DNA of 39,067 nt from Synergistaceae bacterium (GCA_030533085.1 JAUNJZ010000024.1:1-39067); one strand, 5' to 3'. Positions 1,374-9,123 are shown, numbered from the stretch's first letter. The notes: generated by a model not told the origin, from the letters alone. Program-made: numbers and translations.

Positions 1374-4300
1374 TTACTTCGCCTCCCCTTCCGTTGAGCC
1401 GTTTTCCGCGGCTGTTTTTTTCTTTTTGGAGGATAGCTTCATTACCATCATGAAGAAGCATGGCACGAAGAATATCCCGATAACTGTTGAGCTGGTCATT
1501 CCGCCTATTATGCCTGTGCCTATGGAATGTCGGCTGGCCGCTCCCGCTCCGGTGCTGATCGCCATCGGCAGGACGCCGAGGATAAAGGCGATCGAGGTCA
1601 TTATTATCGGACGGAAGCGCAGATGAGAGGCGTTTACGGCGGCCTGGGTCAGTGAAAGGCCGCGCTGATATTCCTCCAGCGCGAATTCGACTATCAATAT
1701 AGCGTTCTTTGCTGAAAGGCCGACCAGAGTGACCAGCGCCACCTGAAAGTAAAGGTCGTTGGAAAGCCCCCTCAGCGTATTGGCGAGGAAAGCGCCGAAT
1801 ATCGCGAATGGGACGGAGAGCACGACGGCAAAGGGCAGGCTCCATTTTTCATACTGAGCGGCAAGTATCAGGAATACCATGACTATGCCGAGCACAAAGG
1901 CAATCATCGTAGCGGCCCCTGTCTGCTTTTCCTGATATGCCGTTCCCGTCCAGGCGAGGGTGAAGCCTTCGGAAAGTTTTGAAGCGACCTCTTCCAGCGC
2001 GCTTATGACCTGCCCTGTCGTATATCCGGAGGCAGGCTGTCCCGTTATCTTTGCCGACGGGAATACGTTGAAGCGCTCCATCGTTTCAGGGCCTGTTATC
2101 GGACGCAGTTCAATCAGAGATTCCAGCGGTATCATATCGCCATTTTCGGAGCGTATATAGGTATATTTTATGCCGTCAGGGCGATCTCTGTAATCCGACT
2201 CCGAAGATATCAGCACCTGGAAGGTGCGCCCCATCTTGTCAAAGTCGTTCACGTAGTAGTTGCTGTAAATGCTGCCCATCGCCCCGAATACGTCTGATAG
2301 ATTCACTCCGAGCGACTTCACCTTAACTCTGTCTATATAGACGTAAAACTGAGGGACGGCGGTCGAGAAGGTCGTCGTCACGCTTGAGATCTCCGGCCGT
2401 TTGTCCGCTTCCTCTATAAATTCATGCAAGACCCTGTCTATTTCCAATACGTCCGTAGTCAGGCGGCTCTGGATATATCCTTCGACGCCTCCGGTGGTGC
2501 TCATACCGATAATCGCCGGCGGATTAAAGGCGTATACCTGTCCTGCGGGAATGGACCACGACTTTCCCATGACCTTTCTTGCGACAGAAAAGGAGTCTTC
2601 GCCAGCTTTCTCACGCAGCTTCCAGTCTTTGAGTTTGAGGAAGCCCGCGCCGTAATTCGACTGGTTGGATGAGTTCATAATGTTATACCCTGTAAATATC
2701 AGGGCAGTTTCTACCTCCGGCAGAGTCTGCGCTATCCCGGATACTTTTGTCGTCAGCTCTTTCGTCTGATTCATAGAGCTGCCGTCGGGGAGGAACATGG
2801 AGGCCATTATGATTCCCTGGTCTTCGTCAGGTACGAGCGAGCTGGGGAGCTGTAACGCCATTTTTGCCGTGGCAAGTACAAATAGCAGGAATACCATCAG
2901 TACGATCACGCTGTGTCTGAGCATCACCTTTACCGACGATGAAAAGCCCGATGTCAGCCTGTCGAAGAAGGAGTTGAACCATCTGAAAAATACAAATTTC
3001 GGCTTGTGGTTCGACGGCTTCAATATCTTCGCGCAGAGCGCGGGGGTGAGCGAAAGCGCGACAAAGCCGGAAATCACGACCGATGTTGAAAGCGTTATCG
3101 CGAACTGTTTATAGAGCTGTCCGGTGAGGCCGCCGAGAAAGGCTATCGGGATAAAGACCGACGTCAGCACCAGCACGATAGCGATAACCGGCGCCGTGAC
3201 CTCTTCCATCGCCTTGCAGGTAGCGTCATAGGGCGAAAGCCCGTTCTCCATGTGGCGATCGACATTCTCTATTACGACGATGGCGTCGTCAACGACCAGC
3301 CCTATCGCCAGAACCATCGCGAAGAGCGTCAGCGTGTTGATGGAGAAGCCGAAGGCTTTCAGTCCGGCAAATGTTCCTATGATCGATACCGGAACGGCCA
3401 GACAGGGAATTATCGTCGCGCGGAAATCCTGAAGGAAAAGGAATACCACAAGGAAGACAAGCACAAGGGCTTCAAGAAGAGTGATGATAACCTCTTCGAT
3501 GGACACTCTGACAAAGGTCGTGGTGTCGTAGGGGATATCGTAGGTGATGCCGCGCGGAAACTTTTTCTGCGCCTCGGCAAGCTGCGCCTTGACCTCGTCG
3601 CAAACCTGAATAGCGTTTGCCCCGGGGGCTAGCGTGATTCCAACTGGAACTGTGGGAATGTCGTTCTGAGTCCCGGTGAAAGAATAGCTCTTCGCCCCCA
3701 GCTCTACGCGGGCGATATCTCTGAGATATATCGTCTCTCCCGCTGCCGTAGTGCTGATTATGATTTCCTCAAATTCCTTCTCCGTGGTAAGGCGTCCCTT
3801 AGTCGTCATGATATACGTCTTTTGAAGATCCGCGTCGGTAGGAGCGTCGCCGAAACGCCCCAGCGCGTACTGGCTGTTCTGATCCTGCACCGCCGCCGCG
3901 ACGTCAGAGGGGGTGATGCCAAGCCGCGACATCTTATCGGGCTTGAGCCATATACGCATGGCGTAATCCTGGTTCGTATAGATCTTTACGTCGCTGACGC
4001 CGGGGATTCGTTTCAGGCTGTCAACAACGTTCAGCAGAGCGTAATTATTCATATAAACTGTGTCGTAAGTTCCATCGGGCGACAGGAGCGTAAAGATCAG
4101 CAGCAGATTGGGCGAGGACTTGCTTACGACGATGCCGTACTGCCGAACCTCCGCCGGTATTGACGGGGTCGCCATCTGCACACGGTTATTGACGTTTATG
4201 GTGGCCTGGTCAGGGTCGGTGCCAAGCTCAAATGTCACGGTCAGCACCATATTGCCCTGTCCGTTGCTTACTGAGTTCATATAAATCATGTCGTCCACGC

Positions 4301-4514
4301 CGTTTATCTGCGTCTCAAGCGGAGAGGCGACGACCTGCGCAATCACCTCCGGCGTCGCGCCGGGATACTGGGCGCTGACAGTGACCTGCGGCGGAACAAG
4401 CTCAGGAAACTGCGCTATAGGCAGCGTATAAATCGAGACGGCCCCTGCCAGAAGAATGACTATAGAACAGACGGTGGCAAGAATAGGCCGCCTGATAAAT
4501 ATCAGAGAGAACAT
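1374..4514 (-). CDS. RND efflux pump permease, AcrB/MexB (HAE-1) family
   Basis: Inner-membrane, proton-driven pump of a tripartite efflux system. Its 1046 residues match the normal length of AcrB-type permeases. It has the N-terminal transmembrane helix (FIRRPILATVCSIVI), then periplasmic porter domain 1. The TM4 motif VVDDAIVVIENVD, near residue 400, carries the paired aspartates of the proton relay. The second periplasmic half follows, then the TM10 motif SAKNAILIVEFA near residue 935, with the relay lysine. All relay residues I can check are present, so it should be active. The adaptor ends just upstream and the outer-membrane channel starts directly after the stop, so the three genes form one operon. 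Substrates cannot be told from sequence. Confidence 0.96.
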   Translation of the reverse strand: MFSLIFIRRPILATVCSIVILLAGAVSIYTLPIAQFPELVPPQVTVSAQYPGATPEVIAQVVASPLETQINGVDDMIYMNSVSNGQGNMVLTVTFELGTDPDQATINVNNRVQMATPSIPAEVRQYGIVVSKSSPNLLLIFTLLSPDGTYDTVYMNNYALLNVVDSLKRIPGVSDVKIYTNQDYAMRIWLKPDKMSRLGITPSDVAAAVQDQNSQYALGRFGDAPTDADLQKTYIMTTKGRLTTEKEFEEIIISTTAAGETIYLRDIARVELGAKSYSFTGTQNDIPTVPVGITLAPGANAIQVCDEVKAQLAEAQKKFPRGITYDIPYDTTTFVRVSIEEVIITLLEALVLVFLVVFLFLQDFRATIIPCLAVPVSIIGTFAGLKAFGFSINTLTLFAMVLAIGLVVDDAIVVIENVDRHMENGLSPYDATCKAMEEVTAPVIAIVLVLTSVFIPIAFLGGLTGQLYKQFAITLSTSVVISGFVALSLTPALCAKILKPSNHKPKFVFFRWFNSFFDRLTSGFSSSVKVMLRHSVIVLMVFLLFVLATAKMALQLPSSLVPDEDQGIIMASMFLPDGSSMNQTKELTTKVSGIAQTLPEVETALIFTGYNIMNSSNQSNYGAGFLKLKDWKLREKAGEDSFSVARKVMGKSWSIPAGQVYAFNPPAIIGMSTTGGVEGYIQSRLTTDVLEIDRVLHEFIEEADKRPEISSVTTTFSTAVPQFYVYIDRVKVKSLGVNLSDVFGAMGSIYSNYYVNDFDKMGRTFQVLISSESDYRDRPDGIKYTYIRSENGDMIPLESLIELRPITGPETMERFNVFPSAKITGQPASGYTTGQVISALEEVASKLSEGFTLAWTGTAYQEKQTGAATMIAFVLGIVMVFLILAAQYEKWSLPFAVVLSVPFAIFGAFLANTLRGLSNDLYFQVALVTLVGLSAKNAILIVEFALEEYQRGLSLTQAAVNASHLRFRPIIMTSIAFILGVLPMAISTGAGAASRHSIGTGIIGGMTSSTVIGIFFVPCFFMMVMKLSSKKKKTAAENGSTEGEAK

Positions 4515-5714
4515 TTATTTTTCTCCCTCTACGGCGACTTCTTCACCGGGGCGCACCTTGCCGACGCCGTCAAGGACTATTCTGTCCCCCTCTTTGACGC
4601 CGGAGGCGACGAGACAGTTATTGCCTATTGTAAGAATGATCCTGATTTCGGTCTTTTCAGGGATGTTCTTTTCATCAAGTCTGTAAACAAAGGACTGGCT
4701 GCTGGCCTGAACGACCGCTTTAAGCGGCACTTGAAGAATATTCGGAACATAATAACCTTTGACATAGACGCGGACAAACTGCCCTGAATATAGCTCGTTG
4801 TCTTTGTTGTCAAATACCGCCCTCGCCTTTATCGAAGCGGTCTCCGGCGTTACAAAGCGATTCTGAAAGTCTATCTTGCCGCGCTTTTCAATCTTTGTGC
4901 CGTCTCCCAGAGCCAGCTCGACAGAAAGCCCCTCCGGTCTGACCTTGAGGTAGCCCTGCTTCTTAAATTGTTCGTTTCTGCGGTAGCTGTCAGCCGGGAT
5001 CGCAAAATCGACATAGAGCTTGTCAGACTGAATAATAGTCGTCAGCAGTCCTCCAGCCTCTATCAAATTCCCCACCGAATATTGCTCCTTGCCGCTGTAA
5101 CCGGATATCGGCGCGCGCACAGTAGTCCAGCCCAAATCTATCTGCGCCTGACGAACCAGCGCCTTCGCCGCATCTACGGCCGCCTTCGACGCCTGCCAGC
5201 CGGACTGCGCCGCGTCATACTCGGCCTTGCTGATGGCGTTCTTTTTATAGAGCGCCGCGGCGCGGTCAAAATCTATCTTCATCTGATTCATCTGTACCTC
5301 GCTCTGTTTAAGCGAAGCGGTGTTTCTGTTCAGCACAGCGCGGTAAGGCGCGGGGTCTATAGTGAACATAACCTGCCCTGCCTTGACAGGCATACCCTCT
5401 TTATATGACTTTTTCTTTATAATTCCTCCTACCTGCGCGCGAAGCTCCGCCTCTCTGAAACCGGAGGTCTGCCCCGTATATTCCATCTCTACAGGAACGT
5501 CCGACCTTTTGACGACCATCGCGGACACAACGGGAGGCTGGACGACCGCGGCGGCTGCCGCCGCAGCTTTCTTTTCTTCCTCTTTTTTAAAATACCACCA
5601 GCCTCCGGCAGCCGCGGCAATTATAACAGCGACGATTATATACGCGATATATTTTTTATTCTCTGTATTTTGACTTTCATTCTGTATCTCGGTCGTCCTG
5701 TTATCATTTTCCAC
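4515..5714 (-). CDS. RND efflux periplasmic adaptor (membrane fusion protein), AcrA/MexA family
   Basis: Bridges the inner-membrane pump to the outer-membrane channel. The 399 residues begin with a short polar tail, one hydrophobic span (about residues 23-42) and an Ala-rich linker. The lipoyl-like half-motif (GGIIKKKSYKEG), an alpha-helical hairpin rich in Ala/Lys/Gln (about 120-190), the second lipoyl half (VRAPISGYSG) and beta-barrel/membrane-proximal domains follow. It appears held by an uncleaved TM anchor rather than the lipid anchor of AcrA, since no lipobox is visible. The start is GTG: AGGAG at 5726-5730 lies 11 nt upstream, and no in-frame ATG is closer. An out-of-frame ATG at 5722 lies between them. 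First gene of the pump operon. Confidence 0.94.
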   Translation of the reverse strand: MENDNRTTEIQNESQNTENKKYIAYIIVAVIIAAAAGGWWYFKKEEEKKAAAAAAAVVQPPVVSAMVVKRSDVPVEMEYTGQTSGFREAELRAQVGGIIKKKSYKEGMPVKAGQVMFTIDPAPYRAVLNRNTASLKQSEVQMNQMKIDFDRAAALYKKNAISKAEYDAAQSGWQASKAAVDAAKALVRQAQIDLGWTTVRAPISGYSGKEQYSVGNLIEAGGLLTTIIQSDKLYVDFAIPADSYRRNEQFKKQGYLKVRPEGLSVELALGDGTKIEKRGKIDFQNRFVTPETASIKARAVFDNKDNELYSGQFVRVYVKGYYVPNILQVPLKAVVQASSQSFVYRLDEKNIPEKTEIRIILTIGNNCLVASGVKEGDRIVLDGVGKVRPGEEVAVEGEK

Positions 5715-5964: not shown

Positions 5965-7356
5965 TCAGCCCTCTTTTCTGAGGTATTTTTTCATTATTGA
6001 GAGCGCCTGGCGCGGGTGGCTTTGAGATAGAAGTCCCATCGCGTAGAAGATGTAGCTTTTGTCGGTGAAGAGTTCGGCGGAGCGCGGGAGCAGAATATCT
6101 TCTTCTCCTTCTGTTTTCAGAGCTTTCGCCAGTATCTTTTCCGGCCTTTCGGCCTTTATCAGCGGGCCGCCGGCGGCGATTATGGTTTTCACTCCGCTGA
6201 GATTTTTGCCGCGCTGCAAAAGTTTGCAGTTTGCGGAGGCGATGTGTTCAAGGTATCCGGCGTGGCGTCTGGCAGCCGTCTTTACCGCAAAGGCCGCGAG
6301 CGCTGCGTCTATGGCCTTATCTTCGCTTTTTTCTGGGATGAAGGATGTGTCAGCGCTGCGGAGCGCGACCGCCTCGCGCAGCTTTTCTTCCGCTATGGCG
6401 GCTTCGGCGGCAAGTCTGTCAAAGCCGGCGGTTTCCGCCATCTGTGAGGCTGATTCGCGCAGCCCCAGATCCCCCTCTACCGTGCGTTTCGCGCGGCTTT
6501 CCGCCGCTCCCGCGATCCGCGCGCCGTCGCAGGAGCTTTGCTCCGCGAAGGAATGTACGTCGGTCGTCGCGCCGCCGACGTCAAAGATCATCAGCTCGCC
6601 TATGCCCTCTTCTCCATCGCAGCCCTCCGACAGCAGTCTCCCCGCCTCGAGCACGGCCGCCGGCGTCGGCATGAGTATGCCGTCGAGCATCTCACGCACT
6701 CCCTCGAGCCCTTTCATGTTTATTATCCGCTTGAGAAAAATTTCTCTCACCGTCTCTTCAGCCATCGCGCCGTTCAGTTCGCCGACCGCCGGTATGATGT
6801 TGTCGGCGATAAAGCATTCTTTGCCCGCCGATGTGAGCAGCGCGCGGACTTCGCCGGCGACGGCGCTGTTTCCGGCGTATATCACGGGAATACGCAGCCG
6901 TGAAGCGGCTATGACGCGCGCGTTGTGCCGCACCGCCTTTTCGTTTCCATTTTCGTAGCCCCCGCAGAAGAGTATTATCTCGACCTTTGCGTCGCTCAGC
7001 GGCTCCAGCTCCTGCGCGGTGATCTTTCCGGCAAGAGTGCAGAGTATCCTGCCGCCGGCTCCGCAGGCGCTGTTTCTTCCGGCGCTGACGCTGAGGCTTT
7101 TGCTGAGCCCTATCACCGCCATGCGCAGACCTCCGGCGGCGCTTGACGACGCAAGCTTTACCGCTCCGTCAAGCTCTTCGCCGATTTCCCTTTCAGCCAT
7201 TTCAAGGCAGCGGAGCAACCCGACGCGCGCGTCGCTTTTCACCGTCGATGGGACTGCCCCGCTGAAAAGTATCTCTTCTTCGTCCGTGTCGGCTACAGTT
7301 ATTTTCGTATGGGTACTGCCGAAGTCCAGCAGGATAGCCTTTCCGCTATGACTCAT
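5965..7356 (-). CDS. GlmL/MutL-like ATPase, probable reactivation partner of the adjacent B12 mutase
   Basis: Member of the GlmL (MutL) family found beside adenosylcobalamin carbon-skeleton mutases and aminomutases (unrelated to mismatch-repair MutL). Such proteins are thought to repair or reactivate the mutase. The 463 residues match the usual length. The N-terminus ILLDFGSTHTKITV is the phosphate-1 loop of the ASKHA (actin/Hsp70-like) ATPase fold, and MIFDVGGATTDVHSF in the middle is the phosphate-2 loop. Its ATG overlaps the end of the mutase gene by 11 bp, so the two are translationally coupled and made together. The partner is not glutamate mutase, so the glm name would be by homology only. 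The family call is firm; the exact role is inferred from neighbours. Confidence 0.85.
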   Translation of the reverse strand: MSHSGKAILLDFGSTHTKITVADTDEEEILFSGAVPSTVKSDARVGLLRCLEMAEREIGEELDGAVKLASSSAAGGLRMAVIGLSKSLSVSAGRNSACGAGGRILCTLAGKITAQELEPLSDAKVEIILFCGGYENGNEKAVRHNARVIAASRLRIPVIYAGNSAVAGEVRALLTSAGKECFIADNIIPAVGELNGAMAEETVREIFLKRIINMKGLEGVREMLDGILMPTPAAVLEAGRLLSEGCDGEEGIGELMIFDVGGATTDVHSFAEQSSCDGARIAGAAESRAKRTVEGDLGLRESASQMAETAGFDRLAAEAAIAEEKLREAVALRSADTSFIPEKSEDKAIDAALAAFAVKTAARRHAGYLEHIASANCKLLQRGKNLSGVKTIIAAGGPLIKAERPEKILAKALKTEGEEDILLPRSAELFTDKSYIFYAMGLLSQSHPRQALSIMKKYLRKEG

Positions 7357-9085
7357 ATATTTTCTTTACTGCCGCGACGGTCTTTTCTATCTCGTTGTCG
7401 CAGTTGACTCCCATTTCGCGAAGCTGTTCCGTAACGTCTGCCGCCAGCGAGCCTCCATCCAGGTTCTCGTTGAGCAGCCCTCCGAGTATCAGCGAGGCCT
7501 CAACGCCGGCTTCTTTCATCTTGCTCAGCAGCTCCGTCGCGTAGCTCAGCGCAATGCCGTTGTAGCTGCTCATTACGACGGCTCTCGCCTCAGTCTCGAT
7601 GAGAGTCTCAACTATTTCGTCGGGTGTGGCGTAGCCTCCCAGGTCGAAGACAACGGCTCCCGCCTTTGTAAGCAACGATTTCGCTATCTCTTTGCCGTAG
7701 TCGTGGATATCCGTCGAGCCGACGACGACCTTTTTGCCCTCAAGCTCCGCCTCGATATTCCCTGCTCTTTGCAGCGCGCCGCTTTTTCTGCTTTCAAGAT
7801 TTTTTATCATATCTGTCGGACGAACCGGTATCCGCTCTCCGCGCTTTCCCGTCTCCACGACGCCGAAACGATCTTCAAGCTGCCTCGCCCCTATGGCCTT
7901 CAGCGCCGCGAAGATATGCCCCGGGTGGCTGATATCCACGCCAAGGTCGCTGAGTCCGTTCATCATATTTTCAAAGAACATTTTTCCGCAATAGATGTAA
8001 AGGTCGCGTTCCGCATAGACCTTTTCCCAGTTTATAAAGGGGGCCATATATTGGGATTTTTCTATCATCATGTCTACCAGAAGATGCCCGTCGACTATCT
8101 CCTGAGCTGTGGGAATTCGCACTGCTTCCGTCACAGGAACGGAGGCGACGGCGTGCCCGGTCGGGGTGTGGCGCTGGAATATCGCGTCGGCGAGCGAGAA
8201 TGAGGCCAGCGCTCCGTAATTCCGCTGGTGATCGAGGCCGTAATCCACGGTATTGCCGAATATCATCGTGCCGGGCGTTTTGTGTTTGTTCAGCTTTTCC
8301 ATCACAGAATGGATTATTATTCTTCCCATCGGGTCGCTGAATAGGTTGCCGTAGGCGAATGCCATGCGGGCGCCGAGCATATCCTCCGTCAGATATCGTT
8401 CCATCATCGCCCAGCCGGTAATGCTCGTGAGGTCGCGGAACTGGTTGCCGAAGCCGTCGTCCATGTTGGAATGGACGATAGTCCCCTCGACCTTGCCCAT
8501 CAGCAGGAAGGCAGTGAGAGAATTTACCGTCCGTTCGTATTCAAGCTCCACTCCCGGGTATTCGTATGTGAAGTAGTGCGAGACATTGCCGATTGAGGTC
8601 ACGCCGGCGTTGAGCGCGTATATTGTATTTTCAAGCGCGTTTGGAGAGCCTATCATGTGATCCGACATGTGCGGCTGCACCGGCACGACCTGCCCCAGCG
8701 CCGCCCATTCTTCGGGGCTTTCGAGCATAAGCCCGGTGCCTTTCGGCAGCCGGCTCCTGTACTCCGCCGGAACGCCCATCAGCCAGTCGAGTATAAAGCC
8801 GAAGCGAGTTATGCTGCTGCCGCGTTTTTTCAGCTCGTCGTATATGAAGCTTATATTGCGCGCGGTCTCATCCCACGAGTTCCAGCCCACATGGGAATGC
8901 TTCGTGATTATTCCCTCTTTTATCGCGCGCCGTTTATATTCCGCTTCGCTCTTCACATTATGTTCTTTGAAAAAAAGTGTCTCCCCCACTTTGATATCCT
9001 TCGCGATTGCCGAGGCTCGCGCCTCAAGCTCAGCCATGTCGGGAAGCTCTTTCCATTCAAATCTTTTATTTAATTTTATATCCAT
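7346..9085 (-). CDS. Adenosylcobalamin-dependent mutase, single chain with C-terminal B12-binding domain; substrate unknown
   Basis: The C-terminal ~130 residues are a B12-binding Rossmann domain of the base-off/His-on mutase type. DIHDYG (Asp459, His461 and Gly464 in the 579-aa product) matches DxHxxG with His as cobalt ligand, a serine motif SSYNG comes about 41 residues later, and ILGG about 25 residues after that. The usual SxL is SxY here. The N-terminal ~450 residues should be the substrate-binding barrel, but I do not recognise them as GlmE, methylmalonyl-CoA mutase or OraE/KamE. The order barrel-then-B12 domain and the length resemble 2-methyleneglutarate mutase as I recall it. I chose ATG 9085 over GTG 9094 because AAGGTG (9094-9099) sits 8 nt before the ATG but overlaps the GTG. 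Confidence 0.8.
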   Translation of the reverse strand: MDIKLNKRFEWKELPDMAELEARASAIAKDIKVGETLFFKEHNVKSEAEYKRRAIKEGIITKHSHVGWNSWDETARNISFIYDELKKRGSSITRFGFILDWLMGVPAEYRSRLPKGTGLMLESPEEWAALGQVVPVQPHMSDHMIGSPNALENTIYALNAGVTSIGNVSHYFTYEYPGVELEYERTVNSLTAFLLMGKVEGTIVHSNMDDGFGNQFRDLTSITGWAMMERYLTEDMLGARMAFAYGNLFSDPMGRIIIHSVMEKLNKHKTPGTMIFGNTVDYGLDHQRNYGALASFSLADAIFQRHTPTGHAVASVPVTEAVRIPTAQEIVDGHLLVDMMIEKSQYMAPFINWEKVYAERDLYIYCGKMFFENMMNGLSDLGVDISHPGHIFAALKAIGARQLEDRFGVVETGKRGERIPVRPTDMIKNLESRKSGALQRAGNIEAELEGKKVVVGSTDIHDYGKEIAKSLLTKAGAVVFDLGGYATPDEIVETLIETEARAVVMSSYNGIALSYATELLSKMKEAGVEASLILGGLLNENLDGGSLAADVTEQLREMGVNCDNEIEKTVAAVKKIYES

Positions 9086-9123
9086 ATTTGTCACACCTTA
9101 AATGAATTTTTTGCTCAGAAAAG

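Follow-up and report, generated by a model that had tools for sequence, protein, structure and literature searches.

Only a small number of radical enzymes that use adenosylcobalamin are known, and enzymology led to the discovery of most of them. 2-Methyleneglutarate mutase from Eubacterium barkeri is a single chain of about 614 residues, with a barrel followed by a B12 domain. Reactivation of glutamate mutase (GlmE and GlmS) is described as the task of a chaperone, MutL/GlmL (PMC4682846). HypD (hydroxyproline dehydratase), which is a glycyl radical enzyme, takes a hydrogen from C5 of trans-4-hydroxy-L-proline and water from C4, and so forms P5C (delta1-pyrroline-5-carboxylate); it is encoded near P5C reductase in gut Clostridiales, and B12-dependent counterparts exist for several glycyl radical eliminases (PMC7077986).

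We analyzed a gene pair in a 39,067-nucleotide stretch of DNA from a Synergistaceae bacterium (GCA_030533085.1 JAUNJZ010000024.1:1-39067), which we will call the window. Like the glutamate mutase system, the pair combines a barrel fold, a DxHxxG cobalamin domain, and an adjacent GlmL gene. But the enzyme is one chain, where GlmES is two, it does not match PF06368 (GlmE), and its gene neighbors are different. The order of its parts (barrel then B12, in a single chain) is that of 2-methyleneglutarate mutase. By sequence, the enzyme falls in neither the glutamate mutase family nor the PLP/B12 aminomutase families. The features of the pair are:

5965-7356, minus strand: GlmL/MutL ATPase gene, 463 residues, putative reactivating chaperone (PF13941, E = 1e-136)
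7346-7356, minus strand: overlap of the enzyme and GlmL genes, exactly 11 bp (from the sequence)
7346-9085, minus strand: B12 radical enzyme gene, 579 amino acids, barrel then B12 domain (from the ORF, homologs, B12 domain, and model)
7349-7738, minus strand: C-terminal B12-binding domain, about residues 450-579 (PF02310, E = 1.1e-8; 1i9c_A, Z = 17.2)
7694-7711, minus strand: DxHxxG motif, D459-G464; H461 is the lower ligand of cobalt (from conservation)
7766-9085, minus strand: barrel half, about residues 1-440 (unmatched by sequence families; modeled fold most like glutamate mutase E)
8126-8128, minus strand: E320 of the EA-x-x-IPT motif (invariant in 104 sequences)
9094-9099, minus strand: AAGGTG, putative ribosome-binding site, 8 bases upstream of the ATG (from the sequence)

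A cobalamin enzyme with an overlapping GlmL gene

An initial annotation had proposed that the pair is a B12-dependent mutase with its own MutL-type chaperone. Both of its ORFs are real and on the minus strand, and their 11-bp overlap is confirmed. The ORF of the enzyme begins with an ATG at 9085 and its stop codon ends at 7346 (the ORF list also gives an alternative start, an in-frame GTG at 9094), and the GlmL ORF runs from an ATG at 7356 to 5965. The overlap likely reflects translational coupling. Synergistaceae and Clostridia have full-length relatives of the enzyme (63-82% identity), again next to a GlmL gene, so the pairing is more than chance.

PF02310 matches residues 460-540 of the enzyme with a score above the cut-off. 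The best equivalog for this domain is methylaspartate mutase S, at 47.6 bits, which is far below the cut-off of 110. All of the elements that had been noted in the C-terminal cobalamin domain (DxHxxG, a serine, and GG) could be located: the first reads D459-I-H461-D-Y-G464, with D459 and H461 invariant in the family and G464 nearly so, and S506 and G535-G536 are nearly invariant as well. The motif and the domain together place the enzyme among the cobalamin enzymes of the base-off/His-on (DxHxxG) type. With the conserved motifs and a model that has a barrel fold (see below), the call of a B12 radical enzyme holds. The term “mutase” should be taken as putative, as several of the likely reactions would be eliminations.

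GlmL scores 456 bits against PF13941 (cut-off 27) and 463.3 bits against NF040745, the equivalog for the GlmL of glutamate mutase, which is just under the cut-off of 475. It is the only MutL-family gene in the window’s genome (2.6 Mb, 95% completeness). GlmE (PF06368) was undetected in this genome and in 25 relatives that we searched, and the PF06368 model does detect GlmE in Clostridia. Since this is the sole MutL in a genome with no detectable GlmE, it most likely serves this enzyme, as had been claimed.

The family has two clades: a GlmL-paired clade (W), which includes the window’s enzyme, and a sister clade (P) without MutL. Among 20 further genomes, full-length MutL was present in all 10 of those with clade W and in 0 of the 10 with clade P only. 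In a tree of GlmL proteins, the W-linked GlmL group together in a single clade of 27 rows (support 100/99), which is separate from the GlmL that are linked to glutamate mutase or to ornithine. The systems of the OraE type also have a MutL relative, but the window’s GlmL is in a different clade. The branching of GlmL resembles that of the enzyme (the enzyme tree that we compared lacks the window’s own lineage). We infer that GlmL is the dedicated reactivase of the enzyme.

The catalytic half has a predicted mutase-like fold

The barrel half does not match any family in Pfam or NCBIfam, which agrees with the annotation’s statement that it is not a glutamate, methylmalonyl-CoA, ornithine, or lysine mutase by sequence. 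When the PDB was searched with a profile of 33 relatives, B12 domains were matched and the barrel never was. An AlphaFold2 model of the enzyme (pLDDT 91.5, pTM 0.89) has its best match in glutamate mutase E (6h9e_B; Z = 29.0, rmsd 3.4, 366 residues aligned, 13% identity). Lysine 5,6-aminomutase comes second (Z = 27.0), ahead of ornithine 4,5-aminomutase (Z = 22.7) and the methylmalonyl-CoA mutases (Z of about 19). As modeled, the catalytic half is a TIM barrel of mutase type that is far in sequence from every known one.

In an alignment of 104 sequences, H63, D100, H139, D142, N153, N167, H205, D210, T279, N289, and E320 hardly vary in any subclade, which suggests one core chemistry across the family. 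H63, D100, H139, D142, N167, H205, D210, and E320 are candidates for the active site. We propose that E320 is the counterpart of the glutamate of GlmE that binds the adenosyl ribose; EAxxIPT lines up with EAxGIPTKEA of GlmE in a profile alignment that is statistically not significant.

Distribution of the family

In one scan of species genomes, we found at least 245 relatives of the enzyme. Clade W is found in Synergistaceae, Clostridia, Levilactobacillus, and draft genomes (MAGs) of Planctomycetaceae; clade P is found in Alpha- and Gammaproteobacteria, Desulfobacterota, Chloroflexota, Acidobacteriota, Synergistaceae, and Asgard archaea. The family is rare in a sample of Clostridia (4 of 391 genomes, all four members full-length), and the family profile identified no further relative of the barrel in these genomes. 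There was no relative of the enzyme among viral contigs. Copies from clade P in plasmid records are annotated as “cobalamin-dependent protein” or “hypothetical protein.”

The window’s genome also contains a paralog from clade P (C19:4317-6005; 34% identity), which adjoins genes for a hydantoinase-A-like ATPase and a TRAP binding protein. The copies from clade P in Synergistaceae (L021:2468-6077 and 17 further loci) have the hydantoinase-A-like ATPase as their partner instead of GlmL. This ATPase may be a replacement reactivase, as the genomes that have only clade P copies beside it lack MutL.

Some genomes have several copies. Emergencia timonensis has four copies of the enzyme gene, and in two loci (L106:641-10404 and L108:878-8400) four to five divergent copies stand in tandem, some of which overlap by a few bases; two P5C-reductase-like genes follow the array in L106. 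Perhaps each enzyme of these arrays acts on a different isomer of the substrate. In Bacilliculturomica, a divergent copy with one in-frame TGA (L121; G064:C20:853073-854644) has a hydantoinase-A-like ATPase, an aldehyde dehydrogenase, and a thiamine-diphosphate enzyme as its neighbors.

Gene neighborhoods suggest proline-type metabolism

The annotation had placed the pair outside any known pathway cluster. This is correct for the window, where no pathway genes lie beside the pair, and for its close relatives. In Synergistaceae, the pair is beside clpC and a PPIase gene, with nothing metabolic linked, and the closer relatives from Clostridia add only a YkvI-type or TRAP transporter. About 250 bp downstream of GlmL, and on the same strand, the window encodes an RND-type efflux pump and a membrane fusion protein (1374-5714). 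By itself, the window gives no substrate. But the description does not hold for the wider relatives, which are recurrently near genes for P5C reductase, proline racemase or hydroxyproline epimerase, and hydroxyproline degradation, so the question of the substrate is not fully open.

For the counts, we fetched 80 loci from among the 245 relatives. A P5C-reductase-like gene is present in 43 of the 80 loci and is within 1 kb of the enzyme in 31 of them. In at least 10 loci the two genes share 4-11 bp; these include two Asgard archaea, Chloroflexota, and Acidobacteriota. Because genomes hold 0-6 genes of the P5C reductase family, we estimate that well under one such neighbor would be expected by chance in 80 loci. 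In some relatives from Alphaproteobacteria, an aspartate-dehydrogenase-like gene is directly upstream and the P5C reductase is several kb away. The linked small NAD(P) dehydrogenases include P5C-reductase-, aspartate-dehydrogenase-, octopine-dehydrogenase-, and DapB-like genes.

Genes of the proline racemase or hydroxyproline epimerase family are nearby in L033, L044, L051, L057, L062, L122, L123, and some alphaproteobacterial loci, and both catalytic cysteines are present where readable. Levilactobacillus cerevisiae (L044) has a compact set with an epimerase-family gene, P5C reductase (over the proC cut-off), a regulator, a transporter, GlmL, and the enzyme. On a plasmid of Phyllobacterium, the enzyme and P5C reductase are beside genes for the proline racemase family, an FAD oxidoreductase, a DapA-like protein, and an aldehyde dehydrogenase, which we read as the probable composition of a hydroxyproline catabolic operon. 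A relative of cis-3-hydroxyproline dehydratase is near the enzyme in L057.

An Emergencia cluster (L122) encodes HplG (D-hydroxyproline lyase; 1093 bits to PDB 7vua), an NSS transporter, GlmL, the enzyme, OrtA and OrtB directly downstream of it (both over their equivalog cut-offs), and P5C reductase. A second genome has a similar set (L051), with homologs of HplG and OrtAB from L122. In two clusters from Clostridia (L138 and L139), the enzyme and GlmL are accompanied by an aminotransferase, a 2-oxoacid:ferredoxin oxidoreductase, a glycyl radical enzyme, a DUF362 protein, and 4-hydroxybutyryl-CoA dehydratase, which scores 576 bits against 1u8v; no P5C reductase was recognized in the stretch of these clusters that we read. 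Their gene content would fit a C5 amino acid.

We rejected the neighboring glycyl radical enzymes as HypD, with scores of 505-572 against a cut-off of 1100. The one in L122 is HplG, as mentioned, and the one in L138 is nearest to B12-independent glycerol dehydratase. Two other associations are with clade P. An AIG2/gamma-glutamylcyclotransferase-like small gene recurs near these copies (L063, L068, L078, L079, L097, L103, L107, where it is PF13772, and L115). In L068, a lysine-2,3-aminomutase-like radical SAM protein (L068:6918-8495) clusters with the enzyme, the GGCT/AIG2-like protein, and P5C reductase.

Proposed reaction and alternatives

We are fairly confident that the enzyme forms a 5’-deoxyadenosyl radical from adenosylcobalamin and abstracts a hydrogen from its substrate, and that GlmL, with ATP, exchanges or reactivates the inactivated cofactor. 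Given the recurrent P5C reductases, racemases or epimerases, HplG and OrtAB, and hydroxyproline catabolic genes, we lean toward a C5 amino acid of the proline family as the substrate for the family as a whole. The case is weaker for the window’s own subclade, because it has no metabolic neighbor and its genome has no detectable P5C reductase: the dimerization domain of P5C reductase had no match in this genome, in another genome (G007), or in Lutispora (G061). Two genes of the proline racemase family are present elsewhere in the window’s genome, away from the pair. The window’s subclade might use the product differently or might have a different substrate.

Our best explanation overall, which we offer tentatively, is that this is a B12 enzyme that acts on a proline-family amino acid, with GlmL as its partner, and is a counterpart of HypD. 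The pair of enzyme and P5C reductase looks like the HypD module with B12 supplying the radical, an arrangement that would suit aerobic Alphaproteobacteria too. HypD and HplG share with the enzyme the proposed class of substrate and the pairing with P5C reductase or with OrtAB and an epimerase. But they belong to an unrelated protein family and have another radical source, so the likeness is in the proposed function only.

The likeliest single reaction, although we are doubtful of it, would convert an isomer of 4-hydroxyproline to P5C and water. The isomer would often be supplied by an epimerase of the proline racemase family. Once bound, it would lose a hydrogen from C5 to the 5’-deoxyadenosyl radical; the hydroxyl group at C4 would then be eliminated or moved to C5, and the return of a hydrogen at C4 would give P5C and water. 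Many relatives have a linked P5C reductase, which would convert P5C to proline. As for GlmL, it would be driven by ATP to swap or reactivate the cofactor on the enzyme. It is slightly more doubtful that the family as such is a B12-dependent hydroxyproline dehydratase, which would be the first enzyme of the DxHxxG type to eliminate water from a ring amino acid. All of the DxHxxG adenosylcobalamin enzymes that we are aware of are mutases and none are eliminases, which counts against a dehydratase. Also, HplG would compete for D-hydroxyproline where it is in the same cluster, which counts against conversion of hydroxyproline to P5C. The alphaproteobacterial loci in which P5C reductase is several kb away, and the L138 and L139 clusters, in which we recognized none, count against our explanation as well. 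In the literature that we searched, we found no report of a B12 enzyme for hydroxyproline.

The enzyme could instead be a mutase that rearranges the carbon skeleton of a non-proline acid (of the 2-methyleneglutarate, glutamate, or branched-acid type), with proline-type neighbors that are coincidental or specific to subclades. We consider this somewhat unlikely; the linkage to P5C reductase is far above chance. Although the fold is nearest to glutamate mutase E, the barrel has no sequence similarity to GlmE, and the arginines with which GlmE binds its substrate appear to be replaced by histidine or aspartate: in a strand alignment made by hand from secondary structure, R66, R100, and R149 correspond to H63/H65, D100/M103, and H139/D142, so that the arginine triad is apparently absent. 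A skeleton mutase would agree with the GlmL partner, which is also found in glutamate mutase operons (PMC4682846), and with the window’s subclade, which lacks a proline-type neighbor. As for 2-methyleneglutarate mutase itself, it may be absent from the 391 genomes of Clostridia or too distant for the family profile, and we recognized no nicotinate-pathway genes by eye in the family loci that we read.

A ring-opening lyase is a less probable alternative. It would be a B12 counterpart of HplG and would convert hydroxyproline to 2-amino-4-oxopentanoate, which OrtAB would cut; a variant would cleave the C-N bond of proline and give 2-aminopent-4-enoate, for a route through the aminotransferase, ferredoxin oxidoreductase, and 4-hydroxybutyryl-CoA dehydratase. 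The position of OrtA and OrtB in L122 and the gene content of the L138 and L139 clusters are what suggest it. However, L122 and L051 already encode HplG-type enzymes for the same step, the pairing with P5C reductase would be unexplained, and OrtB is found in only 5 of 23 genomes, which do not include the window’s genome or Levilactobacillus. With OrtB missing from the other 18, we rejected 2-amino-4-oxopentanoate as a general product.

Least probable, and in our view quite improbable, is an aminomutase on a C5 or C6 amino acid whose product is oxidized by the linked NAD(P) dehydrogenases: ornithine 4,5- and lysine 5,6-aminomutases have a barrel fold and a DxHxxG domain as well and are the next matches in fold, but their chain layout is different, and the B12 domain of our enzyme has no near-invariant lysine for PLP (K51 is the sole conserved lysine that we found). 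The ornithine aminomutase model PF16554 matched nowhere, the window’s own genome included, and so is uninformative there.

Implications

This is a widespread family with a near-invariant active site and no assigned reaction, in gut Clostridia, Synergistaceae, soil rhizobia, and Asgard archaea. From the gene context, the candidate substrates come down to a few compounds that can be purchased, namely the isomers of hydroxyproline, and proline. If the proposed conversion of hydroxyproline to P5C is correct, then a reaction that is known only from glycyl radical chemistry has a B12 version as well. Through it, aerobic bacteria and Asgard archaea could turn isomers of hydroxyproline into P5C and on to proline, for which anaerobes use HypD.
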